Shown here: in pieces, positions 6,458-45,194 of the stretch
How positions within the stretch are numbered: the first letter of the stretch is position 1
How the letters are laid out: every line of letters begins with the position of its first letter
DNA from: Prauserella salsuginis
Lineage (GTDB): Bacteria > Actinomycetota > Actinomycetes > Mycobacteriales > Pseudonocardiaceae
Length of the DNA: 64,000 bases
Assembly (NCBI RefSeq): GCF_024648885.1
Contig: NZ_JANBBF010000016.1
Location: 124,001-188,000 of the forward strand
Direction: 5' to 3'
Position numbers and translations under genes: made by a program
Notes under the pieces: model-generated
Databases searched by the model: none
What the model saw: only the letters and a program-made list of their open reading frames with translations
What the model was told of the DNA's origin: nothing

Positions 6458-7777
6458 TCAGGCGCTGCGGAAGAACCGGTCGAGGACTCGGGTGCCGAAC
6501 TTGAGCGCGTCCACCGGGACCCGCTCGTCGACGCCGTGGAACAGCGCCGAGAAGTCCAGATCGGCGGGAAGCTGCAGGGGAGCGAACCCGAAATTGCGGA
6601 TGCCGAGCCGCTGGAACGCCTTCGCGTCCGTACCCGCGGAAAGCATGTACGGCAGGGTCCGCGCGCCGGGGTCCTCTGCGGTGACGGCGGCGCTCATGGC
6701 GTCCACGAGCGCACCGTCGAACGTCGTCTCCACCGGCGGCAGTTCCATCCACTCGCGTTCCACGTCGGGGCCGAGCAGATCGTCGAGTTCGCGGTCGAAC
6801 GCCTCCAGCCTGCCGGGCAGGATGCGGCAGTCGACGGAGGCCTCGGCCACCGAAGGGATCACGTTGGCCTTGTAGCCGGCGGTGAGCATCGTCGGGTTGG
6901 CGGTGTCGCGGAGCGTCGCGCCGATCATGCGGGAGATGTTGCCGAGTTTGGCGACGCTGCCTTCGAGGTCGTCGTCGGGGAAATCCCATCCGGTGATCTC
7001 GGTGACGCCGTCCAGGAACTCCCGCACCGAGTCCGACACGACGAGCGGGAAACGGTGGTTGCCGAGTTTCGCCACGGCCTCGGAGAGCTTCGTGACGGCG
7101 TTGTCGCGGTGGATCATCGAGCCGTGGCCCGCCGTGCCGCGTACGCGCAGCGTCATCCAGCGGATCCCGCGCTGGGCCGTCTCGACCAGGTAGGCGCGCA
7201 CGTCGTCCTTGAGCGTGATCGAGAAGCCGCCGACCTCGCTGATCGCCTCGGTGGCACCCTCGAACAGCTCGGGCCGGTTCGACACGAGCCACTGCGCGCC
7301 GTACTTGCCGCCCGCCTCCTCGTCGGCGAGGAAGGCGAAGATCATGTCGCGGGGCGGGACGATGCCCTCGCGCTTGTAGTGCCGCGCCAGCGCGAGCGTC
7401 ATGCCCACCATGTCCTTCATGTCGACCGCGCCGCGGCCCCAGACGTAGCCGTCCTGCACCGCGCCGGAGAACGGGTGCACGGACCACTCGGCGGGGTCGG
7501 CGGGCACGACGTCGAGGTGGCCGTGCACGAGCAGCGCGCCGCGCGAGGGATCGGCGCCGGGCAGCCGTGCGACGACGTTGTGCCGGTTCGTCCCGCCGGA
7601 CTCGACGTAGCTGACCTCGTAGCCGACCTCGGTGAGTTTCTCGGCGACGTACTCGGCCGCCGCGCGTTCACCGACGACCGTGTCGGGGTCACCGGTGTTG
7701 GTCGTGTCGATGCGGATGAGCTCGCTGGTGAGAGTCACGGCCTCGTCGGCGGCCGCCTCGATGGGATTCTCGGTCAC
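6458..7777 (-). CDS. M20 family metallopeptidase/deacylase
   Basis: 439 residues with ATG at 7777. Zinc-site motifs of the M20 family are in place: LLVHGHLDVVPA (H85 or H87, with D89), WGRGAVDMKD (bridging D119), ADEEAGGKYG (catalytic E153/E154) and a C-terminal LFHGVDERVP histidine. The lid/dimerisation domain occupies about 190-300 (RGTAGHGSMI). It resembles the actinobacterial dipeptidase-like M20/M25/M40 group; substrates in this group are N-acyl amino acids or dipeptides. No signal peptide, so cytosolic. It appears monocistronic. Confidence 0.92.
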   Translation of the reverse strand: MTENPIEAAADEAVTLTSELIRIDTTNTGDPDTVVGERAAAEYVAEKLTEVGYEVSYVESGGTNRHNVVARLPGADPSRGALLVHGHLDVVPADPAEWSVHPFSGAVQDGYVWGRGAVDMKDMVGMTLALARHYKREGIVPPRDMIFAFLADEEAGGKYGAQWLVSNRPELFEGATEAISEVGGFSITLKDDVRAYLVETAQRGIRWMTLRVRGTAGHGSMIHRDNAVTKLSEAVAKLGNHRFPLVVSDSVREFLDGVTEITGWDFPDDDLEGSVAKLGNISRMIGATLRDTANPTMLTAGYKANVIPSVAEASVDCRILPGRLEAFDRELDDLLGPDVEREWMELPPVETTFDGALVDAMSAAVTAEDPGARTLPYMLSAGTDAKAFQRLGIRNFGFAPLQLPADLDFSALFHGVDERVPVDALKFGTRVLDRFFRSA

Positions 7778-7847
7778 AGGACCTTCCTATCACTGAGACC
7801 GTTGGTGCAGGTGAGACACGTGGGATCGCAAAGGTGGACCCCCCCTG

Positions 7848-7876
7848 TGCGCGGGGTCGCTCGTGTCCGCTACTCT
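7848..7876 (+). promoter_or_regulatory. Possible tRNA-Leu promoter
   Basis: TACTCT (7871-7876) lies 12 bases before the tRNA 5' end, a plausible -10. The -35 region at 17 bases upstream (GTGCGC) is weak. A short ACCCC...GGGGT inverted repeat overlaps this area. Confidence 0.3.
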
Positions 7877-7888
7877 ATTCGCCAGCAA

Positions 7889-7975
7889 GTCCGAGTGGCG
7901 GAATGGCAGACGCGCTAGCTTGAGGTGCTAGTGCCCGTAACGGGCGTGGGGGTTCAAGTCCCCCCTCGGACACCA
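7889..7975 (+). tRNA. tRNA-Leu (anticodon GAG)
   Basis: Type II tRNA with encoded CCA. The acceptor stem pairs GTCCGAG with CTCGGAC (7965-7971), followed by discriminator A and CCA at 7973-7975. The anticodon stem CTAGC/GCTAG encloses the loop TTGAGGT, giving anticodon GAG, which reads CUC and CUU leucine codons. The variable arm TGCCCG-TAA-CGGGCG and the T arm GGGGG-TTCAAGT-CCCCC are both intact. CUC is a common leucine codon in this GC-rich DNA. Confidence 0.97.
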
Positions 7976-7976
7976 C

Positions 7977-8012
7977 AACTGCCCACCCGGTTTTCCGGGT
8001 GGGCAGTTTTTT
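7977..8012 (+). terminator. Intrinsic terminator after tRNA-Leu
   Basis: Perfect inverted repeat AACTGCCCACCCGG-TTTT-CCGGGTGGGCAGTT followed by a T run: 14-bp stem, four-base loop. It starts one base after the CCA end. This is the strongest canonical terminator in the window. Confidence 0.93.
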
Positions 8013-31495: not shown

Positions 31496-31975
31496 TCACC
31501 GCGCCGTTCCGGGTGCTGCGGCCGTGACATCGAGCGCGCGGACCTCGGCGAGGCTGTCGGCCAGGGTGCGGCTGCCGAGTACATTGAGGACGGCCTCTTC
31601 GGTGTCGGCACTGAGCCGGCTGAAGAACTCCGCCGTGTTCGCGGTCACCTCGCAGGACGCGGCGGTGTCGGGGCGGCACGCCCACAGCGGCTTGTCGCCG
31701 ATCGAACACCGGTAGATCTCGGCGAGGGTGATCTCCTCGGCGGGTTTGGCGAGCCGGGCTCCGCCGGCGCGGCCCTTCGTCGATTCGACGAGGCCGCCGT
31801 GGACCAGGGGTACCAGGAGTTTGCGGACCAGGCTCGCGTTCGTCGCGAGGACCTCGGCGAGCTGGGCCGAACTCGACGTCGGCGGATCGGCGGGATCCTG
31901 CTCGGCGGTGACGGCGAGGTAGAGCAGCGCCTTGAGCGCGCTCGAGAATCTGATGTCCAGCACGTGCTCGTTCAC
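31496..31975 (-). CDS. Rrf2 family transcriptional regulator
   Basis: 159 residues from the GTG at 31975; GGAGG is only a few bases upstream, so the in-frame GTG 12 bases downstream is an alternative start. Winged helix: SSAQLAEVLATNASLVRKLLVPL and the wing STKGRAGGARLAKPAEEITL. Three cysteines, C90, C100 and C108 (spacing C-x9-C-x7-C), occupy the region that binds an iron-sulfur cluster in IscR and NsrR, though the spacing is not identical. It is divergent from an Old Yellow Enzyme and likely regulates it in response to redox or electrophile stress. Confidence 0.88.
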   Translation of the reverse strand: MNEHVLDIRFSSALKALLYLAVTAEQDPADPPTSSSAQLAEVLATNASLVRKLLVPLVHGGLVESTKGRAGGARLAKPAEEITLAEIYRCSIGDKPLWACRPDTAASCEVTANTAEFFSRLSADTEEAVLNVLGSRTLADSLAEVRALDVTAAAPGTAR

Positions 31976-32042
31976 CGCCCTCCGTGTCGCGGCTCCAGCG
32001 TACCGGTGCCGAGCTGCCGAGCCATTCCCGCGCGCCGAATGG

Positions 32043-32080
32043 TATGTAACACAGTTGCAGTTCCGGTGCGGATATGTATG
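32043..32080. promoter_or_regulatory. TATGTA repeats between Rrf2 and OYE genes
   Basis: GGTATGTAAC (near 32041-32050) and GATATGTATG (near 32071-32080) place two TATGTA copies 30 bases apart in the 206-base divergent gap. This is the only AT-rich part of the gap and the likely regulator or promoter site. Confidence 0.3.
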
Positions 32081-32181
32081 TTTGACGGGAGCAATTTTTG
32101 TCCCGGGGCTCGGGTTGCGGCGCCGTCGCCGACGACGCGTCCGGCCCCGACAGTGCACCGTCGAAACGCAGTAGGAGCAGC

Positions 32182-33300
32182 ATGTCCACACGCGCGGCAC
32201 AGGTCCTCGCCCGCCCGTTCACCCTGGGATCGGCGGAGCTGCCGAATCGGATCGTCATGGCACCGATGACGCGGGCGTTCTCGCCGTACGGAGTCCCGAA
32301 CGAGGATGTCGCGGCGTACTACAGCAGGCGGGCCGCGGCCGGCACCGGGTTGATCATCACCGAGGGCACGTACATCGATCACCCGTCGGCGGGCGACATC
32401 GGCAAGGCGCCGCGGTTCCACGGCGAGGACTCCCTCGCCGGTTGGCAGCGCGTCGTGGACGCCGTGCACGCCGAGGGCGGCACGATCATGCCGCAGCTGT
32501 GGCACGTGGGGATCCAGCGAGTCGCCGGGAAACCGCCGTATCCGGAGGCGCCGTCGGTCGGCCCGTCCGGGGTGGCGCTCGACGGTACCGAGCGTGCGGG
32601 GGAGACGCTGACCTCGTCGGACGTCGACCGCATCATCGAGGCGTTCGCCGAGGCGGCCGCGCAGGCCGAGCGGATCGGCTTCGACGGCGTCGAACTGCAC
32701 GGCGCCCACGGCTACCTGATCGACCAGTTCCTGTGGGAGCGCACCAACCGGCGAACCGACGCCTACGGCGGTGACGCGGTTTCGCGGACGAAGTTCGCCG
32801 CCGACATCGCGGCGGCCGTGCGCGAGCGCGTGTCGCCCGAGTTCCCGGTGCTGTTCCGGTTCTCGCAGTGGAAGGCCGACAACTACGACGCGAAGCTCGC
32901 GACGACGCCGGACGAACTGCAGGCGCTGCTCGGCCCGATCTCCTCGGCCGGCGTGACCGCGTTCCACGCATCCGGCCGTCGTTACTGGGAGCCGGAGTTC
33001 CCCGAGTACGACTCGGCGCTCAACATCGGCGGCTGGGCCCGCAAGGTCACGGGCAAGCCGGTCATCACCGTCGGTTCCGTCGGTCTCGACGCCGTCTTCA
33101 GTCCGGAGACGTTCCAGGGTGCGGGCGCCGGCGTGCAGAGCATCGAGGGACTGATCGAACGTTTCGAACGCGACGAGTTCGACCTGGTGGCCGTCGGCCG
33201 GGCACTGCTCGCGGACCCGGAGTGGGCACGCAAGGTGCTCACGGGTCGCGAATCCGAACTCGTCCCGTTCACCAAGGACTCCGTCCAGACGCTCCACTGA
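32182..33300 (+). CDS. Old Yellow Enzyme family NADH:flavin oxidoreductase
   Basis: 372 residues from the ATG at 32182 (AGGAG upstream). FMN-binding TIM barrel with IVMAPMTRAFS at the N-terminus and the substrate-binding pair H173/H176 in ELHGAHGYLIDQFLW. The H/H pair (instead of H/N) occurs in many bacterial OYEs. The EFPVLFRFSQWK strand and VGRALLADPEW complete the FMN site. It reduces activated C=C bonds of electrophiles such as enals or N-ethylmaleimide. It sits opposite the Rrf2 gene. Confidence 0.93.
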   Translation: MSTRAAQVLARPFTLGSAELPNRIVMAPMTRAFSPYGVPNEDVAAYYSRRAAAGTGLIITEGTYIDHPSAGDIGKAPRFHGEDSLAGWQRVVDAVHAEGGTIMPQLWHVGIQRVAGKPPYPEAPSVGPSGVALDGTERAGETLTSSDVDRIIEAFAEAAAQAERIGFDGVELHGAHGYLIDQFLWERTNRRTDAYGGDAVSRTKFAADIAAAVRERVSPEFPVLFRFSQWKADNYDAKLATTPDELQALLGPISSAGVTAFHASGRRYWEPEFPEYDSALNIGGWARKVTGKPVITVGSVGLDAVFSPETFQGAGAGVQSIEGLIERFERDEFDLVAVGRALLADPEWARKVLTGRESELVPFTKDSVQTLH

Positions 33301-33343: not shown

Positions 33344-33394
33344 CCTCACAGCGCGGCCGGCGAATCATCGCGTCGGCGGCTCAGCGCTGTGAGG
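33344..33394. terminator. Possible bidirectional hairpin between OYE and MHS transporter
   Basis: Perfect 11-bp inverted repeat CCTCACAGCGC (33344-33354) / GCGCTGTGAGG (33384-33394). The right arm overlaps the last codons of the transporter gene. The 29-base loop is long, so efficiency is uncertain. Confidence 0.4.
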
Positions 33395-34727
33395 TCGTGG
33401 CGGCCTCCGCGGCCGAGGTGGTGTAGAGGTCCCGCTGGAAGCGTTCCCGGATGGAGGCCACGGCGACGAACGTGACCGCGGCGGTGGCGATGATGTACAG
33501 CGCCACCGACCACGAACTGCCGGTCGCCGCGAGCAGTGCGGTCGTGATGAACGGCGCGAGCCCGCCCGCGAACACGGACGCGAACTGGTAGCCGAGTGAG
33601 GCGCCGGAATAGCGCACGTCCGCGGGGAACATCTCCGCATAGAGCGTCGCCTGTGGTCCGTACATGGTCGCGTGGATCGTGAAGGCGACCAGCAGGGCGA
33701 GGAACACCAGCGGTACCGATCCGGTGTCGACGAGCCAGAACATCGGGAAGGCGAACGCCGCCATCAACACGGTGCCGGTGAGGTACAGCTTCTTGCGGGT
33801 GCCCATGCGGTCGGTCAGCGCGCCGAAGAACGGCATGGTGACCACCTGCGTCAGACCCGCGATCATCACGCACCACAGGATCGTCGCCTGGGACATGCCG
33901 ATGTGTGTGGTGGCGTAGTTGAGCATGCCGCTGATGAGGAAGTAGAAGGTGGCGTTCACGACGAAGAACGCGCCGGCCGCCTGCAGGATCTGCCGCCAGT
34001 GCGAGCGGACTGCGTCCACCAGGGGCGCTTTCCGCAACCCGGCTTCGTGTTTGGCGGTGGCGGTCTGTTGCTGCAGTTCGCGGAACACGGGCGTGTCCTC
34101 GATCTTCAGCTGGACATAGCAGCCGATCAGCACCAGCAGGAGGCCGGAGAGGAACGGGATGCGCCATCCCCAGCTGGTGAACTGCTCCTCGGTCAGCGCG
34201 GTGGTCAGCAACACGAAGAACAGGTTGCCCGCGACGGCGCCGAGAACCGCGCCGGTCTGCACCAGGCTCCCGTAGAACCCGCGGCGTGCGACCGGTGCGT
34301 GCTCGGTGAGCAGCAGCGCGGCCCCGCCCCACTGCGCGCCGACGCCCAACCCCTGAATCAGGCGCGCGACGACGAGGAGGATCGGAGCCCAGACGCCGAT
34401 CGTGGCGTAGTCGGGCAGCACGCCGATGGCGAAGGTCGCCACGCCCATCAGCAGCATCGCGGCGACGAGCGGCGGTTTCCTGCCGAATCGGTCTCCGACG
34501 TGGCCCGCGATGATGCCGCCGAGGGGACGTGCGACGAACCCGACGGCGAAGGTGGCGAACGAGGCCAGCGTGCCGGCCACCGGACTGGCAGCGGGAAAGA
34601 ACAACGGCCCGAGCACCAGTGCCGCCGCCGTGGCGTAGATCAGGAAGTCGAACCATTCGAGGGCGGTGGCGAATACCGCCGCTGCGGCGAGTCGCCCCAT
34701 CTTGGTGGTGTGATCCGACGGGTTCAT
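33381..34727 (-). CDS. MFS transporter, metabolite:H+ symporter (MHS) family
   Basis: 448 residues from the ATG at 34727, nine bases after GGAGG. Twelve predicted helices. MHS signatures: ATALEWFDFLIYATAAAL in TM1 and GHVGDRFGRKPPL between TM2 and TM3, RLIQGLGVGAQWGGAALLL, and VRYSGASLGYQFASVFAGG. Family members (ShiA, ProP, KgtP) take up carboxylates, betaines or aromatic acids with protons. The promoter region carries the same palindrome as the divergent TetR-controlled dehydratase operon, so it probably imports that pathway's substrate. Confidence 0.92.
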   Translation of the reverse strand: MNPSDHTTKMGRLAAAAVFATALEWFDFLIYATAAALVLGPLFFPAASPVAGTLASFATFAVGFVARPLGGIIAGHVGDRFGRKPPLVAAMLLMGVATFAIGVLPDYATIGVWAPILLVVARLIQGLGVGAQWGGAALLLTEHAPVARRGFYGSLVQTGAVLGAVAGNLFFVLLTTALTEEQFTSWGWRIPFLSGLLLVLIGCYVQLKIEDTPVFRELQQQTATAKHEAGLRKAPLVDAVRSHWRQILQAAGAFFVVNATFYFLISGMLNYATTHIGMSQATILWCVMIAGLTQVVTMPFFGALTDRMGTRKKLYLTGTVLMAAFAFPMFWLVDTGSVPLVFLALLVAFTIHATMYGPQATLYAEMFPADVRYSGASLGYQFASVFAGGLAPFITTALLAATGSSWSVALYIIATAAVTFVAVASIRERFQRDLYTTSAAEAATTSQR

Positions 34728-34794: not shown

Positions 34795-34812
34795 CAAGAA
34801 CGATCGTTCGTG
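34795..34812. promoter_or_regulatory. Operator-like palindrome upstream of the MHS transporter
   Basis: CAAGAACGATCGTTCGTG. The core GAACGATCGTTC (34798-34809) is a perfect 12-bp palindrome. It agrees with the site at 35596-35613 at 14 of 18 positions and lies about 70 bases before the transporter start, so the TetR protein encoded next to it is the likely ligand. Confidence 0.65.
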
Positions 34813-34897
34813 CACGTTAGCGAAGCGGTGTGTCCGCGGCAAGAGGTACCGGAGTGACGTACCGGAGTGGGGCGGCGGAGTGGGGCGGCGGACCTGA

Positions 34898-35518
34898 TCA
34901 GCGGGGTAGCGGCCCCTCGAGTAGTGCGAGGGCGTAGCGGGCGTACTGCTCTGCCAGTTGGCCGCGACTCAGCGCGCCGTCGCGGCGGTACCACGACGCG
35001 ATCGCCGCGACGGCGCTGAGGATCGCGCGCGCGGCGTCGCGTGCGTACGGCGTCCGGAACGCACCGTCGGCGGCACCCTGGTCGATGATCCGTTCGAACG
35101 TCGCCTGGGTGGCATCGCGATGCGACACGAGCGCGGTCCTGTCGTCGGGCTCGAGGTAGCGCACCTCGTTCGTGGCCACGAGCGTCGCGACCTGGTGATC
35201 GACGACGAAGCCCACGTGGGCGCGGACCGCCTCGCGCAGCTGCGACGGCGCGTCGTCCCCCGCCTCCTCGACCGCACGCAGCACGCGGTGCTGCAACTCG
35301 TCGTTGGCGTGCCGGAGCACCGCGGCCAGGAGTTTCGACTTCGAGGGGAAGTAGTTGTACAGGTTCGACAGGCTCGTTCCCGCCCCCTTTGCGACATCGC
35401 GCATGGAGGCTCCGTTGAAGCCCCTGGTGCCGAATGCCTCCAGTGCGGCGTTGAGGATCACGGCCTCGTTGCGGCGACCCGTGTCACGGACGAGAGCTTC
35501 GGGCGAACGAGCATTCAT
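34898..35518 (-). CDS. TetR family transcriptional regulator
   Basis: 206 residues with ATG at 35518. N-terminal HTH: AVILNAALEAFGTRGFNGASM and DVAKGAGTSLSNLYNYFPSK. The C-terminal ligand domain resembles regulators of acyl-CoA metabolism (KstR2/FadR-like TetRs). It is flanked by the MHS transporter downstream on the same strand and by the divergent MaoC-SCP2 operon; matching palindromes precede both. It is the best candidate for the repressor of this regulon, perhaps relieved by the acyl-CoA made by the ligase at 37339-38982. Confidence 0.92.
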   Translation of the reverse strand: MNARSPEALVRDTGRRNEAVILNAALEAFGTRGFNGASMRDVAKGAGTSLSNLYNYFPSKSKLLAAVLRHANDELQHRVLRAVEEAGDDAPSQLREAVRAHVGFVVDHQVATLVATNEVRYLEPDDRTALVSHRDATQATFERIIDQGAADGAFRTPYARDAARAILSAVAAIASWYRRDGALSRGQLAEQYARYALALLEGPLPR

Positions 35519-35582
35519 ACACGTACCGTAGCCGACTGAAACGGGGCACGAGTGGCGCGTTGACAGCAGGCATCGGAGGCTG

Positions 35583-35613
35583 GTTGTCTCGACAACAAGA
35601 ACAGTTGTTCATG
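35583..35613. promoter_or_regulatory. Two adjoining palindromes upstream of the MaoC-SCP2 operon
   Basis: GTTGTC-TC-GACAAC (35583-35596) is directly followed by CAAGAACAGTTGTTCATG (35596-35613), whose core GAACA-GT-TGTTC is symmetric. The second site copies the one at 34795-34812. They sit 19-49 bases before the ATG at 35632, positioned to repress. Confidence 0.65.
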
Positions 35614-35631
35614 TCGGCGAAAAGGTGGTCG

Positions 35632-36522
35632 ATGGACGACACCGATAGCGGCCCCTACTTCGAGGACTTCGACGTGGGACGGGTGTTCACCGGCGCCGCG
35701 CGTACCTTCTCCGCGGACGTCGTCGCGGCGTTCGCGGAGATCAGCGGTGACCGGGCCGCACTGCACACCGAGTACGGCCGCACGCGAGACGGGCGACCGT
35801 TGGTCCACGGGCCGCTCGTCCTGGCCTCGTTCTTCGGCTGGCATCACGATCTCGGGCTGTCGACGCACGTGGAGGCGGCGTTCGGCACCGAATGGGACTT
35901 CGTGGCTCCGATCCACGTCGGCGACACGGTCACCTACGAGATGACTGTGACCCGGGCGCGTCGCACATCGGGACTGCGGTCCGGGGTGATCGGGCGGCAC
36001 GTGACGGTGCGGAACCAGCACGATCAGGTGGTGCAGGAGGGGCGAACCTCCGCGCTCGTCACCGCACGGCATGCCGTCGACGACGGCGAGACCCGGCTCG
36101 GTCGATCGTTTCCGACGACGGCGTGGGCGCACGCGCTCGCGGAGCGACTGGAGGCCGCAGCGGCGTTCACGACGGCGACCGGCGAATGGGACGGCACGAT
36201 CGGGCTCCGCTTCGGCGACGACACCGTGCTCTTCCGGGTGTACCGGGGCCGCGTGCTGGAGTGCGGAACGCGCACGCCGCACGCACCGACGTTCGTCCTC
36301 GGGGCGACCGATCTGACCTGGACGCGGCTGATCACCGGACCCGTCAACGATTTCACCGGACGGACGATGCGCGGCGAGTTCTCGGTGTGCGGCAGCGGGT
36401 ACGAGTATCTGCGGCTGACCTCGGCGCTGGTGGCACTGGTGGACGAGGCTCGGGAGCTGGCACGGATCGGCAGTGCGGCGCCCGCGAACCCGGTGCGGGC
36501 CCGAGCGGTGGGTGAGGTGTGA
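35632..36522 (+). CDS. MaoC-like dehydratase fused to an SCP2-like sterol-carrier domain
   Basis: 296 residues from the ATG at 35632 (AAGG six bases upstream); an ATG at 35611 lies inside the operator-like palindrome and is less likely. Residues 8-145 are a MaoC hot-dog domain with the D40-x4-H45 pair (ISGDRAALHTE) and GRPLVHGPLV. Residues about 165-280 look like SCP2: GTIGLRFGDDTVLF, FVLGATDLTWTRLITG and MRGEFSVCGSGYEYLRL. MaoC enzymes hydrate enoyl-CoAs; SCP2 binds acyl-CoA or sterols. The operon also encodes a hydrolase and an acyl-CoA ligase. The fusion order MaoC then SCP2 is unusual in bacteria. Confidence 0.82.
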   Translation: MDDTDSGPYFEDFDVGRVFTGAARTFSADVVAAFAEISGDRAALHTEYGRTRDGRPLVHGPLVLASFFGWHHDLGLSTHVEAAFGTEWDFVAPIHVGDTVTYEMTVTRARRTSGLRSGVIGRHVTVRNQHDQVVQEGRTSALVTARHAVDDGETRLGRSFPTTAWAHALAERLEAAAAFTTATGEWDGTIGLRFGDDTVLFRVYRGRVLECGTRTPHAPTFVLGATDLTWTRLITGPVNDFTGRTMRGEFSVCGSGYEYLRLTSALVALVDEARELARIGSAAPANPVRARAVGEV

Positions 36523-37352
36523 TGAAGGCCGAGTATCTCGACATCGGCGGTACGCGGTCTTTCGTGCTCGAGGAAGGGCAGGGGCGAGGGGTCCTCTGTC
36601 TGCACACTGCCGGGCAGAACGGCGTGCAGTGGCGGGACACGCAGTCCGCGCTCGCCGCCCGCGGCTATCGGGTGATCGTCGCGGATCTGCCCGGTCACGG
36701 GCGGTCGGAACCCGCGGCCGGCGGTCCGGTCCGTGATCTCGCCGAATACGCGACGTGGTGTGAGGAGCTCATCGACCTGCTCGACCTGGACCGGCCCTTC
36801 GTCGTCGGCTGTTCGATCGGTGGTGGAATCGCGCTGCAGTTGGCGGCACGGCGGGGCGGGCGTCTCGGCGGCGCCGTTGTCATGGCGGCGCACGGCGGGT
36901 CGGACGTGCCTGGAATGAGCGTGCGGGGTCTGGGCAGGGAACTGGTCGACGCCGCGGCGCCGAGCCGTTCCGACCGGACCTACTTCGGTACCCGTGCGGT
37001 CGTCGGACGGAGCGTGCCCGCCGCACGGGCCGAGCTCATCGCGCGCATGCACCGCCGGGAGGATCCCCAGGTGTCGACCAGTGACCTGATCGGCTGGGCG
37101 ACGCACGACGTACGCGCGGCGCTGCCCACGATCGCCTGCCCGGTGCACCTGGTGGTTGGCGATGACGACCTGTGGGTCGATGTGCGCGACGTCCGCAGCA
37201 CGGCCGCGGCGATCTCCGACGCACAGTGCAGTGTGCTCGAGGGCGTCGGTCATTACCCGATGGAGGAACTTGAGGACTTCGCGGTCCTGCTGCAGGAATG
37301 GCTCGACGACCTGGCCCTGCGATCCATCGGGAGGCAGCGTGAACACACCTGA
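36522..37352 (+). CDS. Alpha/beta hydrolase
   Basis: 276 residues; the ATG overlaps the MaoC-SCP2 stop (TGATG), GAGG upstream. HTAGQNGVQW forms the oxyanion region, ADLPGHGRSEP follows, nucleophile S98 is in VGCSIGGGIA, Asp in VVGDDDLWV and His in EGVGHYPMEE. It resembles 3-oxoadipate enol-lactonase and meta-cleavage hydrolases, but the context (acyl-CoA ligase, MaoC) could equally mean a thioesterase or lactonase step. The following ligase gene begins inside its last codons. Confidence 0.87.
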   Translation: MKAEYLDIGGTRSFVLEEGQGRGVLCLHTAGQNGVQWRDTQSALAARGYRVIVADLPGHGRSEPAAGGPVRDLAEYATWCEELIDLLDLDRPFVVGCSIGGGIALQLAARRGGRLGGAVVMAAHGGSDVPGMSVRGLGRELVDAAAPSRSDRTYFGTRAVVGRSVPAARAELIARMHRREDPQVSTSDLIGWATHDVRAALPTIACPVHLVVGDDDLWVDVRDVRSTAAAISDAQCSVLEGVGHYPMEELEDFAVLLQEWLDDLALRSIGRQREHT

Positions 37353-38982
37353 GTCCGCGACGTTGACGGAGCTGCTCGCGGCCGGCGATCCGGCGTCCGT
37401 CGCGATCATCGACGGCGGGCCGGAACCGCGTCGCGTGACCCGTGAACAGTTGTGGCGCCGTGTCCTCGTGGTCCGGGACGAGCTCGAGGCCCGCGGAGTG
37501 GACGAAGGTGACTGTGTCGGCGTGTGGTTGCCGAACTGGTCCGACGCCCTGGTCTGGCAGTTCGCCGCCGCGGGACTGGGCGCGCACGTCATCGGGATCA
37601 ACACCCGCTACGGCATTGCCGAGGTGGCCCACGTCCTCGACCACGCGCGGCCGAAGGTGCTGGCGGTGGCTCACGACTTCCTGGGACTCGACCTCGTCGG
37701 CACGCTCTGCGGCGCCGCGGAGCGGAGCGGTGTCCCGGTCCCGTCCGTGGCGGTGATCGCCGGGCCCGGCGGAGATGCGGTGTCGGGCACTGATCTCGCT
37801 GAGTACGACATCGGTGCAGGTGCGTGGACCCCGATGGGAGAGGCCGGGCCTGTGGAGCCGTCCGGCACCCTGCGGCACCTGCCGGACGCCCTGGCCGTCG
37901 CGTTCACGACGTCCGGTTCGACGGGCATGCCGAAACTCGCGGCGCACCGCGGCGGCGCGGTCGCCGAACACGCGCGGAACGTCGCCGCGGCGGGCGGATG
38001 GGACGCCGCCTCGGTGAGTCTCGTGGTCCTGCCGCTGTCCGGTGTGTTCGGGTACGTCCCCGCGATCACGGCCATCGGCTCCGGCGGTGCGGCGCTGCTC
38101 GAGCCACGGTTCGACCCGGACCTCGTGCTGCGGCACATGGCCGAATTCGACGTCACCCACCTCGCCTGCGCGGACGACGTCGTGGGCAGGCTCGCGGCCG
38201 CCTGGTGGGCACACCCGATCGAGCTGCCCCGGTGGCGCCGGATGCTGATGGCCGACTTCTACGGCGACTCGCACCGGCTGTCGGCGTGGGCCGAGGACGA
38301 GACGCATACGTCGGCGATGGGTGTTTACGGATCCAGCGAGGTGTTCGCCCTGGCCGCGTTCTGGGACCGCCGCGACACGGTGCCGGCGCGCTGGCGGGGT
38401 GGTGGCAGGCCGGTGTCCGAGCGGTTCACGGTCCGTGCGGTCGATCCGGTGACCGGCGAACCGCCTTCCGAGGGTGAGCCGGGTGAGCTGCAGTTCCGTG
38501 GCTATCCCGTCGTCGACGCCTACCTCGGTGACGACGACGGCGTGATCCGCGCCCGCTCGTTCACCGACGACGGCTGGTTCCGCAGCGGAGACCTGGGTGT
38601 CGTGCACGCCGACGGGAGTTTCGATTACCTGTGCCGCATGGGCGATTCGCTCCGCCTGAAGGGTTTTCTCGTCGAGCCCGCGGAGATCGAAGCGCGACTC
38701 GCCGAGCACGCGAGTGTCGCCCGCGCCAAGGTCGTCGGCGTGCCGCTCGCCGGCGAGACGCACACGGTCGCGTTCGTCGAACCGGATCCCGACGGCGGTG
38801 CCGTCGCCGACCCGGACGCGTTGCGGGCGTGGTGCGAGGAGACGCTCGCTGCGTTCAAGGTGCCCCACGACGTGCGGGTGATCGACGACATGCCGATGAC
38901 GGCGGGGACGAACGGGTCCAAGATTCGCACGGCTGCGCTGCGGGAGCTGGCCGAGCGGATCGTGGCCGGTGACGGCCGGTGA
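37339..38982 (+). CDS. Class I adenylate-forming acyl/aryl-CoA ligase
   Basis: 547 residues from the GTG at 37339, preceded by GGGAGG and overlapping the hydrolase by 14 bases. ANL-superfamily motifs: TTSGSTGMPKLAAH (phosphate loop), GVYGSSEVF, the DDGWFRSGDLG motif, SLRLKGFLVEPAEIE hinge and the catalytic lysine in NGSKIRTAA near the C-terminus. It would activate a carboxylic acid with ATP and CoA. It closes the TetR-controlled operon, ending at a shared hairpin with the convergent LLM gene. Confidence 0.9.
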   Translation: MNTPESATLTELLAAGDPASVAIIDGGPEPRRVTREQLWRRVLVVRDELEARGVDEGDCVGVWLPNWSDALVWQFAAAGLGAHVIGINTRYGIAEVAHVLDHARPKVLAVAHDFLGLDLVGTLCGAAERSGVPVPSVAVIAGPGGDAVSGTDLAEYDIGAGAWTPMGEAGPVEPSGTLRHLPDALAVAFTTSGSTGMPKLAAHRGGAVAEHARNVAAAGGWDAASVSLVVLPLSGVFGYVPAITAIGSGGAALLEPRFDPDLVLRHMAEFDVTHLACADDVVGRLAAAWWAHPIELPRWRRMLMADFYGDSHRLSAWAEDETHTSAMGVYGSSEVFALAAFWDRRDTVPARWRGGGRPVSERFTVRAVDPVTGEPPSEGEPGELQFRGYPVVDAYLGDDDGVIRARSFTDDGWFRSGDLGVVHADGSFDYLCRMGDSLRLKGFLVEPAEIEARLAEHASVARAKVVGVPLAGETHTVAFVEPDPDGGAVADPDALRAWCEETLAAFKVPHDVRVIDDMPMTAGTNGSKIRTAALRELAERIVAGDGR

Positions 38983-40389: not shown

Positions 40390-41937
40390 ATGAGCGCGAA
40401 GGCAACGGTGCCCGCCGGCTCGACGGAGCGGTGGACCGACCGCAAGCGGTACCTGTGGTTGATCGGTCTGGTCGTGCCGTCTCTGGTGTTCCTGGCGATC
40501 GGCCTGCATGCGGCGACCGGCTGGGGCGTGTGGCTGTGGCTGGGGCCCGTCGTGATCCTGATCGTCGTCCCGGTGCTCGATCTCGTGGCCGGGCTGGACC
40601 GGAGCAACCCGCCGGACGAGGTGATCGAACAGCTCGAGAACGACCGGTACTACCGGTGGATCACGTACGCGTTCCTGCCGATCCAGTACGCGGGATTCGT
40701 CGTCGCGCTGTGGATGATCATGCGTGGCGGGCTGTCCACCGTGGACAGTGTGGGGCTGGCGATCACGGTCGGCTGTGTCGGCGGCATCGGTATCAACACC
40801 GCGCACGAACTGGGCCACAAGAAGGAGAGCCACGAGCGGTGGCTGTCGAAGATCGCGCTCGCCCAGAGCTTCTACGGGCACTTCTACATCGAGCACAACC
40901 GCGGGCACCACGTGCGGGTGGCGACGCCCGAGGACCCTGCGAGCAGCCGGGTGGGGGAGAGCTTCTACCGGTTCTGGCCCCGCACCGTCGCCGGCTCGCT
41001 GCGTTCGGCCTGGCGACTCGAGCGCAAGCGCTACGCCAGGCGCGACCGGCATCCGTACCGGATCGGCAACGATGTGCTCAATGCCTGGCTCATGTCGGCC
41101 GTGCTGTGGGCGCTGCTGATCGCCTGGCTGGGCATCGGTGTGCTGCCGTACCTGCTGATCCAGGCAGTGGTCGGGTTCTCGCTGCTGGAAGTCGTGAACT
41201 ACATGGAGCACTACGGCATGCTGCGGCAGCAGCGGGGCACACCCGGCCGGCGCCGGTACGAGCGCGTCGACCCCAGCCACAGCTGGAACTCCAACAACAT
41301 CGCGACGAACGTGCTGCTCTACCACCTGCAGCGGCACAGCGACCACCACGCCAACCCGACCCGCCGCTATCAGACCCTGCGGGACTTCGCCGAGTCGCCG
41401 GTGCTGCCCACCGGGTACGCGGGAATGATCGTGCTCGCCCTGGTGCCGCCGCTGTGGCGGCGTGTGATGGACCCTCGGGTCCTCGAGCATTTCGACGGCG
41501 ACATCTCCCGCGCCAACATCCAGCCGAGCAAGCGGGCGAAGGTCCTCGCCCGGTACGGGCACGCCACCACGCCGGAGGCGCCCGAGGAGATCACTACGCC
41601 GGAGGCGCTGAAGGAGGCCACGGCGCCGGAGGCGCCCGAGGCCACGGCGCCCGAGGCCACGGCGCCCGAGGCCACCGTGCCCAAGGCCACCGTGCCCGAG
41701 GGGGCCACGACGCCGGGGACCGCGAACGAGGCAGGGGGCGCCGACTTCCGTGGCGACGCGACCGGTGGGGGAATGTGTCCCGGCTGCGGGTACGTCTACG
41801 ACGAGCGGACGGGGGACCCGCGGGAGGGCTTTCCGGCGGGGACGCCGTGGTCGGCGATCCCTGACTCGTGGTGCTGCCCGGACTGTGGGGTCCGGGAGAA
41901 GGTCGACTTCGTCGTCGCGGGGACGGCGCGGGCGTGA
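40390..41937 (+). CDS. alkB: Alkane 1-monooxygenase with C-terminal rubredoxin
   Basis: 515 residues. The AlkB membrane domain (1-390) has about six helices and all histidine boxes of the diiron site: HELGH (139-143), EHNRGHH (168-174), NYMEHYG (270-276) and LQRHSDHHA (313-321). A linker of about 55 residues (392-446) rich in TPEA/APEA units leads to a rubredoxin domain whose Fe ligands are C463, C466, C496 and C499. AlkB-rubredoxin fusions in actinobacteria hydroxylate medium/long-chain n-alkanes; the fused rubredoxin delivers electrons. Part of the linker is encoded by 15-bp repeats (41638-41697). A TetR gene follows. Confidence 0.95.
   Translation: MSAKATVPAGSTERWTDRKRYLWLIGLVVPSLVFLAIGLHAATGWGVWLWLGPVVILIVVPVLDLVAGLDRSNPPDEVIEQLENDRYYRWITYAFLPIQYAGFVVALWMIMRGGLSTVDSVGLAITVGCVGGIGINTAHELGHKKESHERWLSKIALAQSFYGHFYIEHNRGHHVRVATPEDPASSRVGESFYRFWPRTVAGSLRSAWRLERKRYARRDRHPYRIGNDVLNAWLMSAVLWALLIAWLGIGVLPYLLIQAVVGFSLLEVVNYMEHYGMLRQQRGTPGRRRYERVDPSHSWNSNNIATNVLLYHLQRHSDHHANPTRRYQTLRDFAESPVLPTGYAGMIVLALVPPLWRRVMDPRVLEHFDGDISRANIQPSKRAKVLARYGHATTPEAPEEITTPEALKEATAPEAPEATAPEATAPEATVPKATVPEGATTPGTANEAGGADFRGDATGGGMCPGCGYVYDERTGDPREGFPAGTPWSAIPDSWCCPDCGVREKVDFVVAGTARA
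41638..41697. repeat. 15-bp tandem repeats inside the alkB linker
   Basis: Four units of GAGGCCACGGCGCCC or close variants (third and fourth: CACCGTGCCC), each encoding EATAP or EATVP. In-frame period of five codons within the AlkB-rubredoxin hinge. Confidence 0.85.
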
Positions 41938-42625: not shown

Positions 42626-43312
42626 CTACCTGACCCAGCGGTAGCGGTGTTCGGGGCGGCCCGCCGAGCCGTAACGCATGCGCAGTTCGGCCCGGCCGTC
42701 GGCGCACAGGTATTCGAGATACCGGCGCGCGGTGACACGGGCGATCCCGGCGCGTTCGGCGACCTCGACGGCCGACAGGTCCGATCCCGCCGCGCGCAGT
42801 GTCTCGGCCACCAACCTGGCAGTCTCGGCGGTGAGGCCCTTCGGTAGCTCTTGTCGGGTGGTGGGCCGTTGGACCCCGAACACGCTGTCCACGTCACGCT
42901 GCGTGACCTGATCGACGCCGCTGAGCTTGTCCCTCGTGGCGGCGAAACGTTCCAGCTGTTCGCGCAGCGCGTCGAGGTCGAACGGCTTGATCAGGTAGTA
43001 GACGGCGCCGCCGTGCATGGCCCTGCGGACACTGTCGACGTCGCGCAGCGCGCTGATGACGAGCACGTCCGCGGGCGCAGTGCCGCCGGCCCCGCTCGTG
43101 GTCCGCAGCTGCCTGAGAACGTCGATGCCCGACATGTCGGGCAGGTAGAGGTCGAGCAGCACCAGATCCGGCCGGTGCGCCTCCACCGCCTCCAGCGCCG
43201 CCGCGCCGGTGTGCACGACCGCCGTGACGGCGAACCCGCGCATCGACGCGACACAGTCCGCGTGGTTGCGGGCCACGCGCGCGTCGTCGTCGACAACGAG
43301 CACCGACAGCAC
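42626..43312 (-). CDS. CitB/DcuR-type response regulator
   Basis: 228 residues from the GTG at 43312. Receiver domain with acidic pocket D9/D10, phosphoacceptor D54 in LLDLYLPDMSG, S87 and K109 in YLIKPFD. The C-terminal half has an HTH: DLSAVEVAERAGIARVTARRYLEYL. This arrangement (receiver plus CitB-type HTH) pairs with CitA/DcuS-type kinases, and such a kinase gene lies 62 bases upstream on the same strand. Target is probably the divergent CitMHS transporter gene. Confidence 0.93.
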   Translation of the reverse strand: MLSVLVVDDDARVARNHADCVASMRGFAVTAVVHTGAAALEAVEAHRPDLVLLDLYLPDMSGIDVLRQLRTTSGAGGTAPADVLVISALRDVDSVRRAMHGGAVYYLIKPFDLDALREQLERFAATRDKLSGVDQVTQRDVDSVFGVQRPTTRQELPKGLTAETARLVAETLRAAGSDLSAVEVAERAGIARVTARRYLEYLCADGRAELRMRYGSAGRPEHRYRWVR

Positions 43313-43374
43313 CAGGGCACCTCTCGTGGATCTCGGCGGGTCCGGGGCGCGGCGTCCGGCCGGGGCCGGACGCG

Positions 43375-44997
43375 CTATCGCGCATCTTCCCGTACGGGCA
43401 GGAACGCGCTGAACACGGTCTCCTCGGCGGAGTCGACGTCGACCCAGCCGCCCCACCGGGTGCATGCCTGGCGCACGAGTGCCAGGCCGAGTCCCCGAGG
43501 GGCGTATCCACCCGGTGTGCGGTCCTTGGTGCTCACGCCCGCGGTGAACACGTCGTCCCCGAGCGCGGGGTCGATGCCGGGCCCGGAGTCGGTGACCCGT
43601 ACTTCCAGCAGGCGGTGGTCGTCGTCGTGCAGGCGGACGAGCAGTTCGACCCAGCCGGCGCTGCCGACGGCGTCGAGCGCGTTGTCGACGAGGTTGCCGA
43701 CGACGAGCAGCGCGTCGTCTCGCAGGCGCTGCGGCAGGTCTGCGGGCACGTCACTGAGCGCAGCGAGCTCGAAGTCGACGCCCTGCTCGGCGGCCTGTGC
43801 GGATTTCGCCAGCACGAGCGCGGCGAGCGCGGTGTCGGCGACGTGCTCCGACACCCGGGTCGAGGCCTCGGTCGTCGTGGCCGAGAGCTCGGCCAGATAC
43901 TGCCTGGCCTCCGGGACGGCACCCAGGTCGAGCATTCCGCTCACCGTGTGGATCCGGTTGGCGAACTCGTGGGTCTGCGCCCGAAGTCCGCCGACCATGG
44001 TGCGCACACCGTCGAGTTCACCGCCGAGCCGGACAAGTTCGGTGTGGTCGCGCAGGGTGACGAGCCTGCCCGTGCCCTGATCGCCGATGCGCACGGCCCG
44101 GTGCTCGCACACCAGGAGGCGGTCGCCGACGGGCAGGAACAGCTCGCCGGTCGTGTCCTCCGTGCCCGCCAGCATCGCACGCAGCCGTGGGTGCAGGCCC
44201 AGGTCGGCCGGGCTGCGGCCGACACAGTCGTCGGGCAGATCGAGCATCGTGCGTGCCGAGTCGTTGGCGAGCAGCACCGCTCCGTCGGAGTCGGCCGCGA
44301 GTACGCCCTCGGAGATGGCGTAGAGGAGGGCTTCCCTGCTTTCGAGGAGCTCGGTGATCTCCCGCGGTTCGAGCCCGTGCGTCTTCGCCCGGATCCGGCG
44401 CGAGATGAGCCACGCACCGCCCGCGCCGACGACGAGCGCGAGCAGCAGCCCCGCGCCGATCGTGGGCAGTGTGCTGGTGGCCGCGAGCGACACCCGCGAG
44501 GACAGCACGCCGACCGACACGTAGCCGACGACGTCTCCCGCCCGGGATTCCACGGGCACCCGGGTGCGCAGGGTCAGCCCGGCGGGACCCCATTCGGTCC
44601 CCGTCCAGGTGTTGCCTGCGAGCACGTGTGCGGGGTCGGTGTGCGGCCGCCCGCCGATCTGGGCCGGGTCCGGATGGGAGTGGCGGATGCCGTCTGCGTC
44701 GACGATCACGACGTAGCGCACCTCCGCGGCGCGACGGATGCGCTCGGCGAGCGGCGCGATGTCGCCGCGATGCCGGGGGTCGGCGAGGTAGTCCCGCACG
44801 CTCGGCAGCTCGGCGACGGACTGGGCGAGCGTCAATGCACGTTCGGTGTACTCGTCGCGCACCTCGCGATACTGATTGACCGTCCACAGTGTACCGGCAG
44901 CGAGCAGGGCTCCGAGCAGCAGAATCGTGATCGAGAGGAACAGGTACCCCGTCAGCGACAGCCTGGGACGGCCGCACCGGATGCGGCGGGCCGTCAC
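43375..44997 (-). CDS. CitA/DcuS-type sensor histidine kinase
   Basis: 540 residues from the GTG at 44997, eight bases after GGAG; an upstream in-frame GTG at 45066 is possible. TM1 (about 17-38), extracytoplasmic sensor domain (about 40-172), TM2 (about 177-197), a cytoplasmic PAS (about 213-310), the phospho-accepting H343 in RAQTHEFANRIH, and an HATPase_c with NLVDNALDA, DSGPGID (470-476) and RGLGLALV. The HEFxN H-box is diagnostic of kinases sensing citrate or C4-dicarboxylates. It is divergent from the CitMHS transporter at 45195. Confidence 0.93.
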   Translation of the reverse strand: MTARRIRCGRPRLSLTGYLFLSITILLLGALLAAGTLWTVNQYREVRDEYTERALTLAQSVAELPSVRDYLADPRHRGDIAPLAERIRRAAEVRYVVIVDADGIRHSHPDPAQIGGRPHTDPAHVLAGNTWTGTEWGPAGLTLRTRVPVESRAGDVVGYVSVGVLSSRVSLAATSTLPTIGAGLLLALVVGAGGAWLISRRIRAKTHGLEPREITELLESREALLYAISEGVLAADSDGAVLLANDSARTMLDLPDDCVGRSPADLGLHPRLRAMLAGTEDTTGELFLPVGDRLLVCEHRAVRIGDQGTGRLVTLRDHTELVRLGGELDGVRTMVGGLRAQTHEFANRIHTVSGMLDLGAVPEARQYLAELSATTTEASTRVSEHVADTALAALVLAKSAQAAEQGVDFELAALSDVPADLPQRLRDDALLVVGNLVDNALDAVGSAGWVELLVRLHDDDHRLLEVRVTDSGPGIDPALGDDVFTAGVSTKDRTPGGYAPRGLGLALVRQACTRWGGWVDVDSAEETVFSAFLPVREDAR

Positions 44998-45194
44998 GAC
45001 GCCGGCTCCGCGACGGCCGCCGGTGATGCGGGTGAGACCAATACGACCATTACCGATCCAATGCACACAACGCTCGTGGGCGCGGCCACGCCCGGTTCAT
45101 GATGTCGCAAATCGCCGTACATCCGGGTGAAACACCCTCCCCGGAGCGTGCCGGCGGGCGAACTCGGTGACCAACGGAGGCAGGAGAAGCGCCC

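Follow-up and report, generated by a model that had tools for sequence, protein, structure and literature searches.

Introduction

KstR2 of mycobacteria and rhodococci is described as controlling catabolic genes through a palindrome of 14 bp, found in three intergenic regions close to the kstR2 gene itself (PMC3068626), and the TetR protein PaaR of Thermus thermophilus as recognizing the consensus CNAACGNNCGTTNG, with phenylacetyl-coenzyme A (CoA) as effector and an operon that includes a CoA ligase (PMC6651687, PMC9493321). The qsd system of Rhodococcus is reported to combine a TetR repressor with a fatty acyl-CoA ligase and a lactonase, arranged divergently (PMC6262395), and a survey of mycobacterial TetR regulators found most of them within 200 bp of divergent genes and binding palindromes (PMC4482099). 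Here we present a locus of the soil actinobacterium Prauserella salsuginis in which a tetR gene is set between two matching palindromes, one before a transporter gene and one before a divergent, operon-like group of three catabolic genes. The locus lies in a 64,000-nucleotide stretch (positions 124,001 to 188,000 of contig NZ_JANBBF010000016.1, assembly GCF_024648885.1), the whole of which is hereafter called the window. Judged by that survey its divergent layout is ordinary. We consider it probable that these genes form a local TetR regulon for the CoA-dependent catabolism of an acid, working as a whole by the mechanism proposed below.

Results

Two matching palindromes flank the tetR gene

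The locus comprises the following features, given in window coordinates.

34795-34812, transporter-side 18-base site CAAGAACGATCGTTCGTG, with core GAACGATCGTTC at 34798..34809
35596-35613, operon-side 18-base site CAAGAACAGTTGTTCATG, with core GAACAGTTGTTC at 35599..35610
33381..34727, minus strand, MHS-like MFS transporter (acid/H+ symporter-like), ATG at 34727 behind GGAGGTGG
34898..35518, minus strand, tetR repressor gene, 206 amino acids, Pfam TetR_N 3.8e-15 and TetR_C_24 4.5e-29
35632..36522, plus strand, MaoC (hot-dog hydratase)-SCP2-fold fusion, 296 amino acids, Pfam MaoC_dehydratas 3.1e-6, dyad D40/H45
36522..37352, plus strand, alpha/beta hydrolase, 276 amino acids, start overlapping the MaoC stop
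37339..38982, plus strand, AMP-forming acyl-CoA ligase, 547 amino acids, GTG start, overlapping the hydrolase gene

A preliminary description prepared from the bare sequence had reported two matching palindromes with a tetR gene between them. Both are present where it had placed them and agree at 14 of 18 positions, and tetR occupies the minus strand between them. The pattern GAACN4GTTC is found at only two places in the 64-kb window, namely the transporter site and the operon site. In a first-order Markov simulation of the two intergenic stretches, at least one site arose in 220 of 20,000 runs and both arose in a single run of the 20,000, and the longer pattern CAAGAACN4GTTC occurs at three places in the whole 5.64-Mb genome, two of which are the window sites. 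The palindrome pair is real and more than chance. The third genomic place (C10, in L003) was taken as a chance occurrence; its neighbors look ABC-transporter-like by eye.

The sites are conserved with the genes

Is the palindrome kept where the genes are kept? The comparison covers 62 of the 63 places that match the MaoC-SCP2 fusion (one duplicate was dropped), drawn from 12 Pseudonocardiaceae genera, with MaoC proteins that range down to 40% identity to that of the window. At E <=1e-40 the fusion is found in 59 of 390 Pseudonocardiaceae genomes and 12 of 46 genera. At E 1e-30, 24 of 397 genomes match in an order-wide sample and 5 of 394 in a class-wide one, the window's genome counted, and outside Pseudonocardiaceae all fusion matches except that in G535 span only part of the profile. 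The transporter, tetR, MaoC, hydrolase and ligase genes are all present in 42 of the 62 loci.

When sites are counted from -250 to +60 of a gene start, GAACN4GTTC is found near the start of the operon in 55 of 62 loci, of tetR in 51 of 52 and of the transporter in 39 of 40. These near-start zones hold 144 sites in 35,016 bp as compared with 40 in 1,066,628 bp elsewhere, a density about 110-fold higher, and seven control patterns gave 0-1 near sites each. On the transporter side the identical 12-mer GAACGATCGTTC recurs in 36 of 39 sites. The check that the preliminary description had proposed, a search for the palindrome upstream of the orthologues in related genomes, thus came out in its favor, and the regulatory reading is strongly supported by this conservation of the sites. 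No site precedes the operon in seven loci (L178, L179, L194, L211 and L218-L220), five of which have no detected tetR.

A second owner for such palindromes would be LexA, in which case the sites would be SOS boxes and the genes part of a DNA-damage response. The SOS box of B. subtilis is given as GAACN4GTTC (PMC4234289), which equals the core of the window sites, and the inner A..T pair of the operon site matches the box before one of the genome's two lexA genes. However, the genome's lexA box TCGAACAGATGTTTGA, identified by eye, has TCG/TGA flanks that are missing from the window sites, which read CAAGAAC..GTTCNTG, and the inner pair is G..C in most relatives' sites. Moreover, the sites track tetR, the transporter and the catabolic operon, with one of them embedded in tetR itself, and the two CGAACANNTGTTCG places in the genome adjoin open reading frames that were not recognized as SOS genes (recA and its like were not covered). 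On flanks, inner pair and gene content we rejected the LexA reading as extremely improbable. The two lexA-family genes of the window's genome, both above the family cut-off, are at C2:871679 and C3:814382. A text search of the open-licence PubMed Central literature for GAACGATCGTTC, GAACGNNCGTTC, GAACGTTCGTTC and GAACNNNNGTTC returned only an unrelated paper that holds GAACGTTCGTTC and a C. difficile LexA paper.

Promoter-like boxes and a third site over the tetR start

Four further features are placed around the two operators.

34814..34842, minus strand, predicted transporter promoter, -35 TTGCCG at 34842-34837, 17-bp spacer, -10 TAACGT at 34819-34814
35560..35589, plus strand, predicted operon promoter, -35 TTGACA at 35560-35565, 18-bp spacer, -10 TTGTCT at 35584-35589
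35505..35516, minus strand, decayed operator over the tetR start, GAATGCTCGTTC, where relatives have ATGAAC-NNN-CGTTC
35583-35596, second inverted repeat GTTGTC-TC-GACAAC (GTTGTCTCGACAAC), overlapping the predicted operon -10

The predicted transporter promoter stands directly upstream of the transporter operator, and a loose TTG-N15-19-TANNNT pair, which is a permissive test, fits 39 of 39 transporter-side loci. On the operon side, 53 of 55 loci have TTGAC no more than 45 bases ahead of the operator. A -10-like box usually follows it at a distance of about 18 bases and stops shortly before the operator. A repressor bound at either operator would cover the start region of these predicted promoters. 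For the MaoC gene the most probable start codon is ATG 35632, preceded by AAGGTGG; TTG 35560 and the ATG within the palindrome are less likely starts, so that the operator would sit in the promoter or leader, outside the gene.

In most relatives a third site lies over the tetR start codon in the form ATG AAC NNN CGT TC, encoding the peptide M-N-x-R-S. Of 51 aligned tetR genes, 44 keep this site intact; among the other seven are L174 and L183, for which the BLAST match began inside tetR. Asn2 and Arg4 are found together in 47 of the 49 tetR genes with a usable start while residue 3 varies, and the Arg4 codon is CGT in 47 of 47 cases, whereas elsewhere in these genes only 23 of 867 arginine codons are CGT, which argues that the palindrome is kept at the DNA level and not merely as a peptide. 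This site within the first tetR codons is a clear example of selection acting on the DNA at the beginning of a coding region. The three Prauserella loci have AAT as the Asn codon, which breaks the third palindrome, and only the transporter and operon sites remain in the window. Conserved sites at its own and at its candidate target promoters are what was found for this predicted TetR palindrome, with the own-start copy decayed in the window.

The preliminary description had also noted a second palindrome abutting the operon site. This repeat is present and has one base in common with the operon site, and a regulatory role for it was not borne out: of 55 loci only two, both from Prauserella, have 6-bp arms at this place, namely the window and L034, and the two sequences differ. 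The observed frequency is slightly above the simulated background, in which 15 of 1,100 stretches had arms of at least 6. As a second operator the repeat was rejected for want of conservation across the 55 loci; it is regarded as chance, and a genus-specific role within Prauserella may exist. The repeat of L034 at the same place reads TTACCT-TCT-AGGTAA and lies 20 bases before the operon operator.

Gene products

The gene identities given in the preliminary description, an MHS-like importer, one TetR, a CoA ligase and a MaoC-SCP2 fusion, are supported by profile and structure comparisons. The transporter gene lies outside the interval to which that description was confined (34795-38982). Its product matches positions 2-399 of 400 of the metabolite/H+ symporter model TIGR00883 with 411.1 bits; since the cut-off of 443.45 is not reached, it is filed as MHS-like. 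It gives 357.8 bits against the shikimate transporter model (cut-off 538), and its Pfam matches are Sugar_tr/MFS_1. The helix-turn-helix domain (TetR_N) and the ligand domain of the TetR protein both exceed their gathering scores, and its nearest solved structures by sequence are Mce3R, 2ibd, 3vpr, 3him and KstR2. Against the NCBIfam equivalogs it falls below the cut-offs for FasR (56.4/330 bits), KstR (36.1/280) and FadR (44.9/200).

The MaoC-SCP2 label is correct for both halves of the fusion, the first by Pfam and the second clearly by predicted structure. The SCP2 half has no Pfam match and only weak sequence matches to SCP2 structures (1wfr, E 0.016; 2cx7, E 0.057). The AlphaFold model of the fusion, built from a 14-sequence alignment, has a mean predicted local distance difference test score (pLDDT) of 88.1, and a Foldseek search with the whole model lists MaoC proteins first (1q6w, 4ffu) and then the SCP2 structures 2cx7 and 1wfr, with 2cx7 (sterol carrier protein 2) at E 8.9e-8 and a template modeling score by target length of 0.77. 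The dyad D40/H45 is invariant in 14 of 14 aligned proteins; we take this Asp/His motif to be the signature of MaoC (R-specific enoyl-CoA hydratase). With the domain and the dyad both in place, the MaoC half is a predicted hydratase 2.

The nearest named models of the hydrolase are PcaDC and PcaD, with 76.1 bits against the 3-oxoadipate enol-lactonase PcaD (cut-off 255.85), and its nearest solved structures are esterases and meta-cleavage-product hydrolases; the GxSxGG motif is kept in 57 of 57 homologues. The ligase has Pfam AMP-binding (6.5e-40) and AMP-binding_C domains, gives 512.5 bits against NCBIfam PRK06164 (cut-off 677) and keeps its P-loop in 53 of 54 cases. The end-to-start overlap of the maoC, hydrolase and ligase genes suggests one operon.

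Companion genes and the possible substrate

The preliminary description had called the system self-contained, which does not hold, as many relatives carry a dehydrogenase and a thiolase gene within the cluster or close to it, and homologues of these lie elsewhere in the window's genome. Within the fetched stretches of the 62 loci a thiolase is found in 24, an acyl-CoA dehydrogenase in 18 and a SnoaL_4 protein in 15. In L206 the thiolase and dehydrogenase genes enclose one for a CaiB-family protein, which gives 392 bits against 2-methylfumaryl-CoA isomerase (cut-off 725), and a group of proteins similar to one another by eye was found in 5 loci from 4 genera. The window's genome holds a separate stretch in one direction with CaiB-like and SDR genes (by eye), a thiolase (66%) and a dehydrogenase whose 71% match is to an Amycolatopsis-type enzyme; the orthologue of the L044-type dehydrogenase is absent from this genome (G000; best match 48%). 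In L239, which belongs to another family, the gene immediately before MaoC-SCP2 is SDR-like, and no GAACN4GTTC is found there. Combined, these genes amount to the components of a beta-oxidation-type route that uses an (R)-hydratase. In L038 the in-cluster dehydrogenase open reading frame (7275-7985) has only 236 amino acids and the MaoC dyad is lost; the cluster of this locus is perhaps in decay or taking on a different function.

The folds of MaoC, SDR and ligase proteins are used in polyketide and fatty-acid synthesis as well, and the palindromes could be true TetR sites before a biosynthetic operon that supplies an acyl precursor or modifies a lipid. Against this, an importer-like gene belongs to the regulon, a dehydrogenase and a thiolase accompany it in relatives, and no carrier-protein or ketosynthase cluster was recognized by eye among the conserved neighbors. 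We regard a biosynthetic operon as very improbable.

A phenol-hydroxylase-like gene of the HpaB type adjoins the cluster together with catA in 5 of 62 loci, and again in L242 of another family, where an MctC/ActP-like symporter lies near the cluster and no MHS match was found. This linkage in a few genera suggests an aromatic-derived acid as substrate, and it brings up the lower arm of phenol/catechol ortho-cleavage, in which the hydrolase would open the enol-lactone, the ligase would make the 3-oxoadipyl-type CoA ester in place of a CoA transferase and the thiolase would cleave it. The best named models of the hydrolase fit this assignment, CatA and CatB of L048 exceed curated cut-offs, and an HpaB homologue (68%) is present in the window's genome. 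However, the linkage is confined to a minority of loci, the route needs neither dehydrogenase nor MaoC, the hydrolase stays far below the PcaD cut-off, the L044 thiolase reaches 353.3 bits where PcaF requires 597, and no catA match lies near the HpaB homologue of the window's genome. No GAACN4GTTC stands directly before HpaB or CatA in the linked loci, so any link would run through the pathway and not through TetR. We consider the ortho-cleavage assignment unlikely.

Of the 14 places at which GAACGNNCGTTC occurs in the window's genome, the window's included, 11 of the 13 others were viewed by eye for open reading frame position (L119-L128 and L030), and C5:83666 is the one place that might precede a related catabolic gene, with no convincing case among the rest. 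There (L030:1509) GAACGTCCGTTC falls within a thiolase-MaoC-SDR run, near the 3' terminus of and inside a MaoC gene of one domain, with an SDR-like gene starting some 130 bp further on; it is possibly a further regulon site, or chance.

Neighboring genes in the window

31496-33300, divergent pair of an Rrf2-type regulator gene and a gene of the old-yellow-enzyme family, adjoining the transporter, with the same gene order in L034 and L035
39013-40191, minus strand, luciferase-like monooxygenase, downstream of and convergent with the ligase gene, with no GAACN4GTTC near
40390-41937, plus strand, AlkB-like alkane hydroxylase (by eye), in which a repetitive T/A/P/E-rich linker leads to a rubredoxin-like segment, CPGCG...CPDCG, at the C terminus
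42626-45066, minus strand, sensor kinase (Cache, PAS, HATPase) and response regulator, less than 4 kb from the cluster

The luciferase-like monooxygenase, 99% identical in L034 and 94% in L035, is much better conserved than the operon, which is 79-83% identical in L034. The layout of the sensor kinase and response regulator is reminiscent of the DcuS/CitA carboxylate sensors.

Discussion

We propose that, when substrate is absent, a TetR dimer would sit on GAACN4GTTC just downstream of the -10-like boxes and block both promoters, and that in most relatives the site over the tetR start codon would give autorepression. Once acid has entered, the ligase would convert it to the CoA ester, and this ester or a later CoA intermediate would release TetR, a step suggested by TetR relatives. 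Import through the MHS-like permease and activation by the ligase would then proceed. A beta-oxidation-like route would follow, beginning with an acyl-CoA dehydrogenase, which in the window's genome would perhaps be supplied by the separate CaiB-like/SDR/thiolase/dehydrogenase stretch. MaoC would then carry out hydration of the (R) type while its SCP2 partner domain keeps hold of the acyl-CoA, and oxidation by the SDR and thiolysis would come after. The alpha/beta hydrolase would most likely open a lactone or ester, or cut a C-C or thioester bond.

Several observations weigh against this account. No tetR gene was detected in the fetched stretch of 10 of 62 loci, five of which (L170, L188, L192, L195 and L212) retain the operon site, so that in these either the regulator is elsewhere or the link between site and regulator is looser. 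The operon site lacks its TTGAC box in L208 and L212. The loci are related and partly near-identical, and the counts are for that reason not independent. The separate stretch that might supply the dehydrogenase has no GAACN4GTTC in 18 kb and may not be co-regulated. Over the 62 loci the MaoC dyad has its strict motif in 49 and a variant in 1 (GGDDHPLH, L202), and 12 have none; the hydration step may not be universal. Most of the enzymes fall under the cut-offs of their best NCBIfam models, and no exact function is assigned to them. The metabolic reading is plausible yet incomplete.

A more specific version can be put forward as a tentative and rather doubtful proposal. An aromatic-derived acid, perhaps a ring-cleavage product, a lactone or a dicarboxylic acid, would be imported, hydrolyzed, activated with CoA by the ligase and broken down by an MFE-2-like module split over separate proteins, an SDR and MaoC-SCP2, together with a protein resembling CaiB/2-methylfumaryl-CoA isomerase. 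Control would rest with a TetR that has its operator in its own first five codons, and this would be an undescribed pathway of Pseudonocardiaceae. In the open-licence PubMed Central literature, judged by title and the start of the abstract, no paper describing the cluster or the gene set was found. For an orphan system of acid catabolism the cluster supplies a testable set of genes together with regulator and operator, and since the operator is sharply conserved and the TetR ligand is probably a CoA ester, the regulator offers a route to the substrate.

How does the locus compare with systems already described? Peroxisomal MFE-2 has SDR, hydratase-2 and SCP2-like domains. The fusion resembles it by domain order, in carrying a hydratase and then an SCP2 domain in one chain, and the SDR-like gene directly upstream of the fusion gene in L239 extends the likeness, whereas the SDR here is a separate protein.

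The likeness to Rhodococcus qsd and its regulator QsdR lies in a TetR, a hydrolase and an acyl-CoA ligase in divergent arrangement, and qsd as described includes neither a MaoC-SCP2 nor an MHS-like gene. A lactone-catabolism regulon of this kind, in which TetR would sense a lactone, the hydrolase would open it and the ligase would activate the acid, gains from the resemblance of the window hydrolase to enol-lactonases and esterases. However, the likeness is one of gene content and layout, the qsd ligand is described as a homoserine lactone, and the locus has a symporter-like gene, with beta-oxidation genes in relatives. We consider the lactone regulon quite unlikely. The qsd lactonase belongs to a different family than the window hydrolase.

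The preferred reading, a regulon for CoA-dependent acid catabolism, also has parallels in KstR2 and PaaR. Like KstR2, which is among the nearest solved structures, the window protein is a TetR repressor with palindromes near its own gene; the KstR2 motif AnCAAGnnCTTGnT differs from GAACN4GTTC and KstR2 is tied to cholesterol catabolism, and we claim no equivalence. The PaaR consensus CNAACGNNCGTTNG, as reported, and the commonest sites here have the core AACGNNCGTT in common, from which the window's operon site departs (inner AGTT); the outer bases differ, and no paa oxygenase genes are found among the five genes of the locus. By analogy with PaaR, a CoA ester is the likely ligand of the TetR protein described here.

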